A stretch of 64,000 nucleotides of DNA from Halomarina oriensis (GTDB lineage Archaea; Halobacteriota; Halobacteria; Halobacteriales; Haloarculaceae), in assembly GCF_009791395.1 (NCBI RefSeq), contig NZ_WSZK01000028.1, positions 1-64,000 of the forward strand, given 5' to 3'. Shown here piece after piece: positions 38,745-44,850 of this stretch. Each line of letters begins with the position of its first letter. Position 1 is the stretch's first letter. Made by a program: the position numbers and the translations under genes. A model generated the notes under the pieces. That model was given only the letters and a program-made list of their open reading frames with translations, was not told where the DNA came from and did not search any database.

Positions 38745-40451
38745 ATGACAGGCGATAACGTCGACAGACGGTCGTTTCTGAAGTTGGCGGGCGGCGCAGC
38801 GGCGACGGCGTCCTTGGCAGGTTGTGCCGGCGACGGTGGCGGTGAGGGGACCGACGACGGGACCGGAACCGGCACCGACGGCGGCGGCGGTTCGACGATG
38901 ACCGAGGGCGGCGACGAGACCGAGACCCAGACCGAACAGGCGGAACCGGAGACCCGCGAGGAGTACCTCCAGCGGGCGAACCAGGTACTCCACGACGAAG
39001 CGCCGTGGATATTCCTCAACCGGCAGTACAGCGTCTACGGGAAGTCCAACCGCATCGAGTGGGAGGCGCGGCGCGACGAGCGCATCGACGCCTACGAGAT
39101 CACCCCGACGGAGGGGTCGGACGTCCGCATCACCCAGAGCCAGTTGGACTCGGGGCTGGACCCACACGACCACCGCGAGACGCCGACGGACAACATCGTT
39201 CTCCAGTCCTACGAGGGCCTGCTGAGCCGTGACGCCGAGGGGAACGTCACCGAGGCGCTGTCGAACGGCTACGAGCGAGTCGAGGACGGCCGCGTGCGGT
39301 TCATGATCCGCGAAGGGGTCACGTTCCACAGCGGCGAGGAGCTGACGCCGGCGGACGTCGCGTTCTCCGTCAACCGCATCGTCCAGGAGAACATCGGTGG
39401 GCTGGTCAGCCCGCAGAGCGACCAGCTCGCGGGCGTCACGAGCGCGGAGGTCGTCGACGGCGAGCGGGCCGTGGACGTCGTCTCCGAGGGCGGTATCAAC
39501 CCCATCGTGTTCTCGCTGTTCGCCACCTACTGTGACATCGTCCAGCAACAGTGGATCGAGGACAACGACTCGGCGACCATCAACTCCGACATGAACGGGA
39601 CCGGCCCGTTCCAGCTCGACAGCTACGACCAGGGCGTGAGCGTCAGCTACACGCGCTACGAGGACTACTGGCGCGAGCCGGCCCCCGCCGAGACGCTCGA
39701 AATCACCAACGCGGCCGAATCCAGCACGCGAGTCAACCAGCTGCTCGGCGGCGAGACGGACATCATCGTCAACGTCCCGCCACAGGACGCCGGCCGGGTC
39801 CAGAACAGCGGCGACACCTCGCTGAGTGCGGTGCCGAGCACCCGCGTCATCTACAACGCGATGGTGTACAACGCCGAACCGTTCGACTCGGTGCAGTTCC
39901 GCCAGGCGATGAACTACGCCATCGACCTGCCGAGCATCATCGAGAACATCCTCTCGGGGTTCGCCGACCCGACCGGTCAGCCCACCCTGGAGGGGTTCGT
40001 CGGCTACAACTCCGACGTCGGCCCGTACGAGCAGAACGTCGAGCAGGCCCAGCAGCTCGTCGAGGAGAGCGGCTACTCGGGGGCGGAGATTACGCTCCAC
40101 ACGCCGGTCGGCCGGTACCTGCGCGACCTCGAAATCGCACAGGCGGTCGCCGGTCAGATCGACGAACTGGAGAACGTCTCGGCGTCGGTCGAACAGCGTG
40201 AGTTCGGGCAGTTGGCCGAGGAACTGCTCGACGGCGACATCTCGACCGGCCCGTCGTTCTACCTCATCGGGTGGGGCAACGCGACGTTCGACGCCAGTCA
40301 GACCATCATCCCGCTGTTGACGACCGACGGGGCGCTCACCTCCTACAGCAACGAGGAGGTCGACGGACTCATCGAGAGCGCGCAGTCGATGGGCGGGAGC
40401 GACGGTGGCAGTGGCGGCGACTCTAACAGTTCGGGTAACTCCAGCGAGTGA
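38745..40451 (+). CDS. Dipeptide/oligopeptide ABC transporter substrate-binding lipoprotein, apparently circularly permuted
   Basis: 568 residues. A Tat signal (RRSFLKLAGG) ends in the lipobox LAGC, so Cys 27 anchors the protein outside the membrane. After a Gly/Asp linker, residues about 70-119 (YLQRANQVLHDEAPWIFL...YSVYGKSNRIEW...RRDERIDAYEI) resemble the segment that normally closes the C-terminus of family 5 binding proteins. The usual N-terminal start (ITQSQLDSGLDPHDHRETPTDN) follows at about 129. The chain ends after NEEVDGLIESAQSM in a Gly/Ser tail, where the missing C-terminal helix would be expected. Binds peptides or similar solutes for the permeases and ATPases downstream. The permutation call is by comparison with family pattern from memory. 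Confidence 0.85.
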   Translation: MTGDNVDRRSFLKLAGGAAATASLAGCAGDGGGEGTDDGTGTGTDGGGGSTMTEGGDETETQTEQAEPETREEYLQRANQVLHDEAPWIFLNRQYSVYGKSNRIEWEARRDERIDAYEITPTEGSDVRITQSQLDSGLDPHDHRETPTDNIVLQSYEGLLSRDAEGNVTEALSNGYERVEDGRVRFMIREGVTFHSGEELTPADVAFSVNRIVQENIGGLVSPQSDQLAGVTSAEVVDGERAVDVVSEGGINPIVFSLFATYCDIVQQQWIEDNDSATINSDMNGTGPFQLDSYDQGVSVSYTRYEDYWREPAPAETLEITNAAESSTRVNQLLGGETDIIVNVPPQDAGRVQNSGDTSLSAVPSTRVIYNAMVYNAEPFDSVQFRQAMNYAIDLPSIIENILSGFADPTGQPTLEGFVGYNSDVGPYEQNVEQAQQLVEESGYSGAEITLHTPVGRYLRDLEIAQAVAGQIDELENVSASVEQREFGQLAEELLDGDISTGPSFYLIGWGNATFDASQTIIPLLTTDGALTSYSNEEVDGLIESAQSMGGSDGGSGGDSNSSGNSSE

Positions 40452-40474: not shown

Positions 40475-41458
40475 ATGTCGTTCGGGCGCTTCCTGCTGAA
40501 GCGTGTACTGCAGGGTGTACTCGTCGTCTGGGGTGTCATCACGGCCGTGTTCCTGCTCCGGTTCATCACGCCGGGGAACCCGGTGGACTTCGTCGCGCCG
40601 CTCGACGCGAGTCAGGAGCTACGCCAGCAGATAGCGGCGGAACTGGGACTCGATCAGCCCCTGTACATCCAGTACTTCGAGTACCTGTTCGGCCTGCTCC
40701 AGGGCGACATGGGCTACTCGTATCTCTCCGGGCAGGAGGCGAGCGTCATCGTGTTCAACCGCCTCCCGGCGACGGTCGAACTCGCGGTCGCGGCGACTAT
40801 CGTCGCCGTCGTCCTCTCCATCCCGCTGGGCGTCATCAGCGCGACACGTCGCCACCAGCCGGCGGACTACGGCGCGACGACGTTCTCGCTGCTCGGCATC
40901 AGCACGCCCAACTTCTGGCTGGGCATCATGCTGCTGTTGGTGCTCTCGGTGCAGTTCGACGTCTTCCCGGTCGGGCGACGGGGCATCCCGTTCGTGGACG
41001 CGTTCACGCTGCTGCTCCAGGGGAACGTCTCCGGGATGCAGCTGTGGCTCTCACACATCGCGCTCCCGGCCATCACGCTGGGGACGTACTTCACGGCGCT
41101 CATCACACGGCTGACGCGAAGCGGGATGCTCGACGAACTCGGGAAGTCCTACGTGCGTGCGGCACGCGCGAAGGGTATCCCGGAGACGCTGGTGCGGTAC
41201 CGCCACGCGCTCAGGAACACGCTCATCCCGGTCATCACCGTCGTGGGACTCCAGTTGGGGACGCTCATCGGCGGGGCGGTCATCACCGAGCAGGTGTTCA
41301 ACTGGCCGGGGCTGGGACTGGAGGTCATCGGCGCGGTCAACGCCCGTGACTGGCCCATCCTCCAGGGGAGTCTCATCGTCATCGGCATCGGGTTCGTGCT
41401 GGTGAACATCGTCGTGGACGCGCTGTACGCGTATCTCGACCCACGGGTGGTCGACTGA
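40475..41458 (+). CDS. dppB: Peptide ABC transporter permease, DppB type
   Basis: 327 residues, six helices. The start MSFGRFLLKRVLQGVLVVWGVITAVFLLRFITPGNPV and the cytoplasmic EAA loop YVRAARAKGIPETLVRYRHALRNTLIPV are typical of DppB/OppB. It forms the membrane channel together with the next gene. It starts 23 bases after the binding-protein stop and ends overlapping the DppC start (TGATG). The symbol reflects the subfamily; substrate not proven. Confidence 0.9.
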   Translation: MSFGRFLLKRVLQGVLVVWGVITAVFLLRFITPGNPVDFVAPLDASQELRQQIAAELGLDQPLYIQYFEYLFGLLQGDMGYSYLSGQEASVIVFNRLPATVELAVAATIVAVVLSIPLGVISATRRHQPADYGATTFSLLGISTPNFWLGIMLLLVLSVQFDVFPVGRRGIPFVDAFTLLLQGNVSGMQLWLSHIALPAITLGTYFTALITRLTRSGMLDELGKSYVRAARAKGIPETLVRYRHALRNTLIPVITVVGLQLGTLIGGAVITEQVFNWPGLGLEVIGAVNARDWPILQGSLIVIGIGFVLVNIVVDALYAYLDPRVVD

Positions 41459-42477
41459 TGGTCTCGCCACGCACCGTCCGGAACCTCAAACGCGAGTGGC
41501 GCGACAACTGGCTGGCGAAGGTCGGTGTCGTCCTCGTCGTCGCCATGGTGCTGGTCGCGGTGTTCGCACCGTTCATCGCGCCGTACAACCCCCGGTCACA
41601 GAGCCTCGACGACAACCGACTGCCGCCGATGGGGTTCAGCAAGACCGAGAACCAGACGAGTTCGGAGTTCGTCGACGGTGAGGCACAGGTCGTCTCCGAG
41701 GAAGTGACCATCAACGCGACGTGGGACCACCCGCTCGGGACGAACCAGCTCGGACAGGACATGCTCTCGCGGGTCATCTACGGGGCTCGGACCTCGCTGC
41801 TGGTCGGGTTCTTCGGCACCCTGTTCGCCATGCTCATCGGCGTGCCCATCGGTCTCGTCGCGGGCTACTCCCGTGGCCGGGTCGACGACGCGCTGATGCG
41901 CTTTGCGGACGTGATGCTGGCGTTCCCGTCGCTCGTGCTCGCCGTCGCCCTCGTCGGTCTGTGGGGGCGGGCGACGTTCAGGATACCGGACCCGTTCGTC
42001 GCGCTCGGACTCGCGCCGGGGATGCCCGGAAGCGTCGTCATCCCCGGGACGGTCATCGCCGTCGTCGCACTGGTGACGTGGGTGTGGTTCGCCCGCGTCG
42101 CGCGTGGGGAGGCGCTGTCGGTCCGCGAAGAGGAGTACGTCAAGGCCGCTCGCAGTCTCGGCGCGAGCGACCGGTTCGTCGTCTGGAAGCACGTCCTGCC
42201 GAACAGCCTCACGCCCATCCTCGTACTCGGGACCATCCAGATCGCGGCCATCATCCTGCTGGAGAGCGCGCTGTCGTTCCTCGGATTCTCGGGGACGACG
42301 CTGTCGTGGGGCTTCGACATCGCACAGGGGCGTGACGACCTGGCGACGGCGTGGTGGGTCGCCACCATCCCCGGCCTCGCCATCGTGCTGACCGTCATCG
42401 GTATCAACCTCGTCGGGGACTGGCTCAGAGACGCACTCGATCCAGGACTGGGCGGCGAAGGGGGGTCCGGCGCATGA
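41458..42477 (+). CDS. dppC: Peptide ABC transporter permease, DppC type
   Basis: 339 residues. An N-terminal helix is followed by a family-typical external loop (DNRLPPMGF...HPLGTNQLGQDMLSRVIYGARTSLLVG) and a permease domain with the EAA loop EEYVKAARSLGASDRFVVWKHVLPNSLTPI. The signatures GTNQLGQDMLSR and AARSLGASD are diagnostic of OppC/DppC. The loop is longer than in bacterial members, a common haloarchaeal feature. Stop overlaps the ATPase start (ATGA). Confidence 0.9.
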   Translation: MVSPRTVRNLKREWRDNWLAKVGVVLVVAMVLVAVFAPFIAPYNPRSQSLDDNRLPPMGFSKTENQTSSEFVDGEAQVVSEEVTINATWDHPLGTNQLGQDMLSRVIYGARTSLLVGFFGTLFAMLIGVPIGLVAGYSRGRVDDALMRFADVMLAFPSLVLAVALVGLWGRATFRIPDPFVALGLAPGMPGSVVIPGTVIAVVALVTWVWFARVARGEALSVREEEYVKAARSLGASDRFVVWKHVLPNSLTPILVLGTIQIAAIILLESALSFLGFSGTTLSWGFDIAQGRDDLATAWWVATIPGLAIVLTVIGINLVGDWLRDALDPGLGGEGGSGA

Positions 42478-43781
42478 GCGAACGGAACTCGGTCGAGGAG
42501 ACGGCCGACAGCGCCAGTGCCACCACCGACGGTCGGACCGACTCCCGGTCGGACCTGCTGCGCGTCCGGGACCTCTCGACGCGCTTTTTCACCGAAGAGG
42601 GACAGGTCAACGCCGTCGAGTCGGTGTCGTTCGACGTGCGCGACGGCGAGATACTCGGCATCGTCGGCGAGAGCGGGTCCGGGAAGTCCGTGACCGCGCT
42701 CTCGCTCATCGACCTCGTGGAGTCGCCGGGTCGGGTCACGAGCGGGCAGGTCTGGTACCGTAACCCGGACCTCGCCGAGGAGTTCCCCGACGCCGCCGAC
42801 GGGGAGTTCGTCGACCTGCGGGAGTTGCCGACGCGGGTCCGACGGACGCTCCGCGGGCCGTCGTTCAGCATGATCTTTCAGGACCCGATGAGCAGTTTCA
42901 ACCCCTCCATCACCGTCGGCGAGCAGATCGCCGAAGCGGTCGAGGTCCAGCGCCGGGCGAACGCGAACCCGCGCTCGACACGCTCGCGGACGCAGGGGTA
43001 CGGTCTCGGGCGGTTCATCCTCGACGGAGTCGTGCCGAACCGTGACTACACGGACCCCGAGAGCAGTCGGCGGGCGGTGGAGTTGCTCGAACAGGTCGGC
43101 ATCCCCGACCCCGAGCAACGCGCCGACGAGTACCCCCACCAGTTCTCCGGCGGGATGCTCCAGCGGGCGATGATCGCGCAGGCGCTCGCGGGTGAACCGG
43201 ACGTACTCATCGCCGACGAACCGACGACGGCACTCGACGTGACCATCCAGGCACAGATCCTCAACCTGCTGCGGGACCTCCAGGACGAGCGCAACATGAG
43301 CATCGTGATGATCACCCACGACCTGGGTGTCATCGCCCGGATGTGCGACCGGGTCTGCGTGATGTACGCGGGCGAGGTGGTCGAACGCGGGACGCTCGCC
43401 GACGTGTTCGACCGACCGGTCCACCCCTACACCGAGGGGCTGTTGGGGTCGATTCCGGACCTCGACGACCCCGCACCACGCCTTCAGCCTATCGAGGGGA
43501 ACGTCCCCTCGCTGCTCGACTCGGAGATGGGCGACCGGTGTTACTTCGCCGACCGGTGTCCGAAGGCGATGTCAGAGTGTCTGACTCACCCCCCGGAGTT
43601 CGACGCGGCGGGAAGCGAGGAACACCGTGCACGCTGTGTGCTGGCCGACCACGACTACGACCCGAGCGAGGCGCTCCCCGAGGACTTCTTCGGGGGTGGC
43701 AGTCCCGCCGAGACGGGCGTGACGAGCACGGACCAACAGGCCGAAGACGGTGCGACGAGCGAGGTGAGCCAGGATGACTGA
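42474..43781 (+). CDS. dppD: Peptide ABC transporter ATP-binding protein, DppD type
   Basis: 435 residues from ATG 42474. Walker A is GESGSGKSV (about 63-71), the Q-loop is [12 protein letters not shown], the ABC signature is [15 protein letters not shown], and Walker B is [13 protein letters not shown], followed by the switch His in VMITHDLGV. The C-terminal extension has the family's four Cys ([15 protein letters not shown]...RARC). An insert of about 50 residues between the Q-loop and signature makes it longer than the usual 330. A Ser/Thr/Asp-rich N-terminal 30 residues is a halophile addition. Partners with the next gene. Confidence 0.92.
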
Positions 43782-44850
43782 CCCGCTCGTCCGCGTCGAG
43801 GACCTCCGGAAGTACTACTTCGAGCAGGACACCCTCGTCGACCGGATGCTCGGCCGCGAGCAACAGAGCGTGAAGGCCGTCGACGGCGTCAGTTTCGACA
43901 TCCACCGCGGCGAGACGCTCGGACTGGTCGGCGAGTCCGGCTGTGGGAAGTCGACGACCGGCGAGACGCTGCTCGCCCTCCGGGAGGCGACCGGTGGGAG
44001 CGTCGGGTTCGACGGGACGGACGTCTTCGGGATGGGCCGTGCGGAGCTGAAGAGCTTCCGTCGTCGCGCACAGGTCGTCTTCCAGGACCCCTTCTCCAGT
44101 CTCGACCCGCGACTCACCGTCGGCGACATCATCGGCGAACCGCTCCTCATCCACGGCCAGTCGGACAGCGCGGGACGACGTGAACGCGCGAAGGAACTCT
44201 TAGAGCGTGTCGGCCTCTCGGCCGGACAGGTCGACCGGTACCCACACGAGTTCTCGGGGGGCCAGCGCCAGCGCGTCGGCATCGCCCGCGCACTGGCGCT
44301 CGAACCGGAGTTCGTCGTGCTTGACGAACCCGTCTCCGCACTCGACGTGAGCGTCCAGGCGCAGGTGCTCAACCTGCTGGAGGACCTCCAGGAGGAGTTC
44401 GGGTTGACCTACCTGTTCATCGCCCACGACCTCTCGGTCGTCCGGCACATCTGTGACCGCGTCGCCGTCATGTATCTCGGGGAGATCGTCGAAATCGGGA
44501 CGACCGACGACATCTTCGACGACCCACAACACCCCTACACGCAGGCGTTGCTCGACAGCGTTCCACGAGCGGCGACCTCCGAACACGGCCGTCGGGTCGA
44601 CGCGCTCGCCGGCGACGTCCCCTCGCCGCGGAACCCACCGCAGGGCTGTCACTTCCACACGCGCTGTCCGCACGCACGCGAGGCCTGCCGTGCGGAACCG
44701 CCGGCCTACGACGTGAGCGAGGGACACGAGGCGGCGTGTTTCCGACTCGACGACGACCACGCCTACTGGGAGAGCGACCCCATCGCACAGAACGCGACGG
44801 GGGAGGACACCTCCGAGCACGCGCCGGAGTCGACGAGCGAGGCCGACTGA
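43774..44850 (+). CDS. dppF: Peptide ABC transporter ATP-binding protein, DppF type
   Basis: 358 residues. Walker A is GESGCGKST, the Q-loop is [12 protein letters not shown], the signature is [17 protein letters not shown], Walker B is [14 protein letters not shown], and the switch His is in FIAHDLSVV. The C-terminal Cys cluster [14 protein letters not shown]...ACF is present. The start overlaps the end of dppD by eight bases. Together with dppD it powers uptake by the dppB/dppC channel. The stop codon lies inside a strong palindrome that can terminate transcription from both sides. Confidence 0.92.

Follow-up and report, generated by a model that had tools for sequence, protein, structure and literature searches.

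Can a substrate receptor of an ABC importer carry the last module of its fold at the beginning of the chain, and is such an order a true circular permutation? This question is raised by a gene of Halomarina oriensis (assembly GCF_009791395.1, contig NZ_WSZK01000028.1). The window, the whole stretch of DNA which we have analyzed, has 64,000 nucleotides (positions 1–64,000, forward strand), and all the features described below are on this strand. The gene (38745..40451) codes for a family 5 solute-binding lipoprotein of 568 amino acids plus a stop. It matches the SBP_bac_5 profile (PF00496) with 201.7 bits in a Pfam scan, the gathering cut-off being 32.4. The match covers residues 172–529 only, and the rearrangement is invisible in the Pfam output.

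The genomic context is that of a Dpp/Opp-type importer: The receptor gene is followed by open reading frames for a DppB-type permease (40475..41458), a DppC-type permease (41458..42477), a DppD-type ATPase (42474..43781) and a DppF-type ATPase (43774..44850). We take these names from family resemblance. The four genes occupy the same place in relatives, and the same operon is found with both orders of the receptor chain, where the flanks reach; at some loci the contig or the flank ends early. DppB was not detected in the fetched flank of L025, L162 and L163. The last two (G256:C2 and G195:C49) are canonical paralogues.

The protein begins with a twin-arginine signal (RRSFLK) and the motif LAGC, which we take to be a lipobox ending in Cys27 (38745..38825). 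The Pfam TAT_signal score is 21.5 bits, slightly below the cut-off of 22.7. A low-complexity tether rich in G, D, T and E follows (residues 28–65, 38826..38939). Next comes the displaced C-terminal module (residues 66–119, 38940..39101), which scores 82.4 bits with a profile built from canonical relatives only; it contains a helix, the strand APWIFLNRQYSVYG, RIEW and RRDERI. The splice between the old C-terminus and the old N-terminus, placed by the profile ends and by the likeness of permuted linkers to canonical C-tails, corresponds to residues 119–124 (39099..39116). The body of the protein is in normal order (residues 125–548, 39117..40388; profile positions 7–430, 689 bits), from the first strand VRITQ to the helix VDGLIESAQS. 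The new C-terminus is a tail rich in G, S and N without a second module (40389..40448), as seen in the sequence and the alignment; the chain ends after AQS and this tail, just past the helix which precedes the module in relatives. Tails of this kind, with 20–30 residues, are found in the nearest relatives of the protein (L001, L002 and L071), and most permuted proteins end about 5–10 residues past the last helix.

No ligand has been assigned to this protein, because its scores with the NCBIfam equivalogs are far below the cut-offs: 128 bits for NikA (cut-off 600), 108 for GsiB (594) and 69 for DppA (1005); OppA is also far below. The best solved relatives by sequence are 5u4o and 1uqw. Their alignments start at residue 124 or 129, end at about 547 and do not include the N-terminal 120 residues. 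Residues 64–108 can be aligned with positions 432–476 of AccA, near its C-terminus, with 7.4 bits, which alone is not significant. The family 5 or cluster C proteins (DppA, GsiB/YliB 1uqw, 5u4o and AccA) share with our protein the PF00496 body, the type of operon and all segments. They differ in the order: In the H. oriensis protein the last module of about 50 residues comes first, and the new ends are in the preceding loop.

The order of the segments was established with the canonical-only profile (27 canonical rows, 486 positions). In the window protein it matches in two swapped pieces, positions 422–485 at residues 59–122 and positions 7–430 at residues 125–551. All positions from 7 to 485 are present, and the canonical N-to-C order is not; therefore we have filed the protein as a permuted variant of SBP_bac_5. 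The same two pieces are found in all 13 permuted proteins tried, with the body piece ending at position 427–430 in every case, and the four canonical controls give a single piece. When the permuted sequences are rotated to canonical order, 11 of the 13 give one unbroken match and the score rises slightly in all of them. Shuffling the module costs 57–79 bits across the permuted proteins tried, and 77 bits in the rotated window sequence. Local alignment (BLOSUM62) gives a similar picture. The 50-residue module (69–118) scores 123–256 in relatives, always at one chain end, and the maximum of 100 shuffles per protein is 52 (the distant loci L052–L054 were left out). The next best match within the window protein itself scores 23, and no second copy is found there. 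The swapped order of the window protein is far beyond chance.

An earlier note on this DNA had placed the family 5 C-terminal module at residues 70–119 or so, between the lipobox and the first strand of the body, with the chain stopping just ahead of the point where the module is expected. The profile pieces and the end of the chain bear this out, and the limits of the module were correct within a few residues. The note had also proposed a circular permutation, and this is what we find: The order is swapped, nothing is lost or duplicated, and the canonical order is kept in other orthologues.

The species-genome scan gave 54 related loci, of which 19 are permuted, like the window's own copy (L055), and 32 are canonical; the remaining three (L052–L054), which carry the label canonical in the automatic classification, are too distant to judge. 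Two of the six patterns used in the scan fall in the module, and a pattern takes no account of where in the chain the module stands. Module and body were located in each locus by local alignment of the extracted proteins. The permuted order is thus shared by close relatives. Homologues in which the N-terminal segment is accompanied by another copy at the C-terminal end, which would speak against the idea of the earlier note, were looked for and not found. Canonical orthologues have the module at the C-terminus, are found in the same operon and are about 50–70% identical to the window protein, for example those of Halorussus ruber (L017) and Haladaptatus salinisoli (L019).

Of 391 Halobacteria genomes searched, 196 had a match at 1e-70 or better. 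Among the 150 matches listed, 43 are permuted (the match starts at query residue 1–7) and 107 are canonical (start at 115–127), with no start position in between. The permuted matches listed span 13 genera and five families, according to group codes. They form a core of 39 at 58–100% identity and a divergent group of four at 42–44%. The genus g20 has species of either order among the matches listed, and genome G258 contains one permuted and one canonical gene.

A few other loci should be mentioned. Three Clostridia MAGs (L048, L049 and L050) have a canonical solute-binding protein which shares about 33% identity with the window protein; DppB- and DppC-like genes, with about 40% identity, come after it. 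Exchange between archaea and bacteria in the same sediments is possibly behind their presence; the habitat is guessed from isolate names. One of the divergent permuted genes (L110 or L102, G309:C10:8097-9491) apparently carries a frameshift close to the 3' end: The match to the body ends early and the frame continues to 858–936 residues. The canonical gene of Halospeciosus flavus (L034) has an in-frame stop early in the body, which may reflect a pseudogene or a sequencing error.

The junctions are still legible. Profile position 485 ends at residue 122 of the window protein and position 7 starts at residue 125. The old C- and N-termini have therefore been joined with hardly any extra sequence. 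The splices of permuted proteins (AIEPTGD, AISPATD) resemble canonical C-terminal tails (AIEPASN, AMSPADQ), and their length between module and body is 2–13 residues. The core and the divergent permuted groups are both cut in the same loop, which in a model of the canonical L017 protein is a short turn between helices 417–428 and 432–449.

The moved module has kept its pattern. The residues R, P-W, Q, Y, W, R and D-E are invariant in the canonical module and likewise in the permuted one, as seen in alignments of 27 of the 32 canonical loci (A1) and of 18 of the 19 permuted loci plus the window (A2). Core permuted and canonical rows share on average 57.4% identity in the module and 60.6% in the body, compared with 62.1% and 61.3% within canonical rows. 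The module thus seems slightly more changed in its new place, yet about equally constrained in either one, which suggests that the N-terminal module packs at the usual C-terminal site. The window differs from five permuted relatives chiefly at third codon positions, in module and body alike, and this is consistent with purifying selection on both.

Models obtained with AlphaFold2 are of unequal quality. The canonical L017 protein has a pLDDT of 86.9 and matches GsiB/YliB 1uqw at TM 0.90. The permuted window chain, modeled from a shallow alignment with 19 similar rows, has a pLDDT of 56.1 and a pTM of 0.43; this is a poor model, with values of about 27–40 in the strand region of the module and Foldseek superpositions at about 20 Å rmsd. 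From the sequence comparisons, the permuted chain most likely folds into an ordinary two-lobed receptor.

How many times has the order changed? The first set has 79 rows from 86 proteins, after dropping six duplicates and the frameshifted L102, with the window standing for L055. In the body tree of this set the permuted rows do not form one group. The approximately unbiased (AU) test on all permuted rows used 56 of the 79, without deep canonical rows, and monophyly of the permuted rows was not rejected (p=0.263); the core group alone as one clade, tested on 53 of the 56 with the divergent permuted rows set aside, was not rejected either (p=0.332). The wider set, also of 79 rows, includes deep canonical rows. 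Its tree and AU tests were computed on 53 rows, after near-copies and long-branch rows had been dropped (L131, L109, L119, L121, L129, L049, L103 and L051 among others). Here the divergent permuted L099–L101 group with the canonical L111, L115 and L120 at 100/100, and canonical branches, starred in the tree, separate them from the permuted core. One permuted clade is rejected with body and module (p=2.75e-55), with the body alone on the same 53 rows (p=2.23e-10), and with the adjoining permeases DppB and DppC (p=1.65e-32; 56 rows of data, 40 of them used in the AU tests). The core group as one clade is not rejected with the receptor (p=0.105, 53 rows) and is rejected with DppBC (p=0.0139, 40 rows). 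The genus of the divergent permuted group also contains a canonical protein, L140, which is 61.2% identical to L099. A quick tree puts L101 apart from L099 and L100, a weak split. The deepest rows are canonical, in Clostridia and basal haloarchaea alike.

A single origin of all permuted proteins is thus rejected once the deep canonical rows and the operon permeases are added. Because the AU tests reject one permuted clade, we hold to the reading that the topology has switched at least twice, at one loop.

Our best explanation, to which we give a probability of about 85%, is that the gene codes for a permuted Dpp/Opp-type receptor, exported by the Tat pathway and anchored at Cys27, with an ordinary fold and a recurrent rearrangement. 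The gene product would be the substrate receptor of the importer encoded next to it, and its ligand is probably a small peptide or a similar solute. The last helix–strand module of the family 5 fold is placed first, a very short splice joins the old termini, and the new chain ends sit in the loop which separates the last two helices. With the predicted Tat export and lipid anchor, the tether would start from this loop and no longer from the first strand. In one large haloarchaeal group the rearrangement has become fixed. In a second group it has arisen anew, or has been undone, at this very loop.

The route has to be inferred, because no duplicated intermediate or free module has been found. 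Most simply, the 3' module would have been duplicated or copied into the region coding for the linker (tether), and the original would then have been lost. In 86 loci the score of a second copy does not exceed 39 for permuted proteins or 34 for canonical ones, and in 29 further loci (28 of them canonical) it does not exceed 43, all within the range of shuffled sequences. When 116 family genomes were searched with the module alone, neither a fused intermediate nor a free-standing module was identified. In this search 44 genomes had a match, a single one in 42 of them, and G406 and G424 had two each, on different contigs. The matching open frames have 152–936 amino acids; the one with 152 is found near a contig start.

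Other explanations should be considered. One of them supposes one ancient permutation and several restorations of the canonical order. The same cut loop in both permuted groups agrees with it, as does the smaller set, in which one permuted clade was not rejected. Against this, the deepest rows are canonical, the wider set rejects one clade, and the order would have to be reversed several times independently, each reversal being a permutation in itself; we consider it improbable. In any case, one gain with several reversals would equally be repeated switching. An artefact of assembly or annotation has no supporting point that we could find, and it is ruled out by relatives with the same order: Many independent genomes show it, with an open frame, a lipobox and an intact operon. 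Its probability is negligible.

Two further explanations concern the fold of the permuted chain. The first finds room in the poor model of this chain: The N-terminal module might be a duplicate, or an element of the tether with its own job, the body having lost its C-terminal module without replacement. In that case the match in invariant residues and constraint with canonical proteins would be hard to account for, a C-terminal copy is absent from every permuted protein examined, and a lost core strand would hardly have persisted in about 40 genomes; all this makes the idea very unlikely. A shade less likely still is a domain-swapped oligomer, in which the displaced module would pack into an adjacent molecule and complete its fold. 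The tether could permit such swapping. The old N- and C-termini are close in the family 5 fold, and if they are also close here, a splice of 2–13 residues favours packing in cis.

A comparable case has been published. Tp0684 (TpMglB-2) of Treponema pallidum is a circularly permuted glucose-binding lipoprotein of cluster B, for which the name Cluster Bc has been proposed; relatives occur in Gram-positive bacteria, and its authors suggest a link with tethering (PMC4990184). Both cases are natural permutations of the lipoprotein receptor of an ABC importer, shared by relatives. They differ in fold, direction and sequence similarity: In Tp0684 the first strands have moved to the C-terminus, with a 13% sequence match, while in our family the C-terminal module has moved to the N-terminus, with 57% mean identity. 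The window protein does not belong to Cluster Bc; its body is of family 5, and its canonical relative matches family 5 structures. Tethering alone fails to explain the change of order, because canonical haloarchaeal orthologues also look tethered. The earlier note knew of no such permutation in this family. This holds for family 5, for which we found no natural case in the open literature of PubMed Central, whose coverage leaves out most subscription papers; it needs the qualification that Tp0684, from another cluster, had been described. We noticed no other natural permuted ABC binding protein in the same literature.

Circular permutations may arise by duplication with trimming or by fission with fusion (PMC3320104). 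According to the same source, DNA methyltransferases have been permuted by duplication, with changes of order within one fold, as here; intermediates are documented for them, whereas none has been seen in the haloarchaeal family.

In summary, we see a complete and widespread permutation which is apparently recurrent and apparently subject to selection, a stronger case than that of the earlier note, where recurrence does not appear. Natural circular permutations are usually seen between remote homologues, in which the event is blurred. In this family both orders survive in same-operon orthologues at about 50–70% identity, with legible junctions, so that the cost, the benefit and the route of a change of chain order become testable by order swaps in closely matched proteins. 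Annotation by profiles passes over such rearrangements, as Pfam scores the body alone. We think it likely that one loop of this family is a permutation hot spot, where same-operon orthologues have switched at least twice, possibly more, and perhaps the relocation of the tether helps a surface-anchored receptor.
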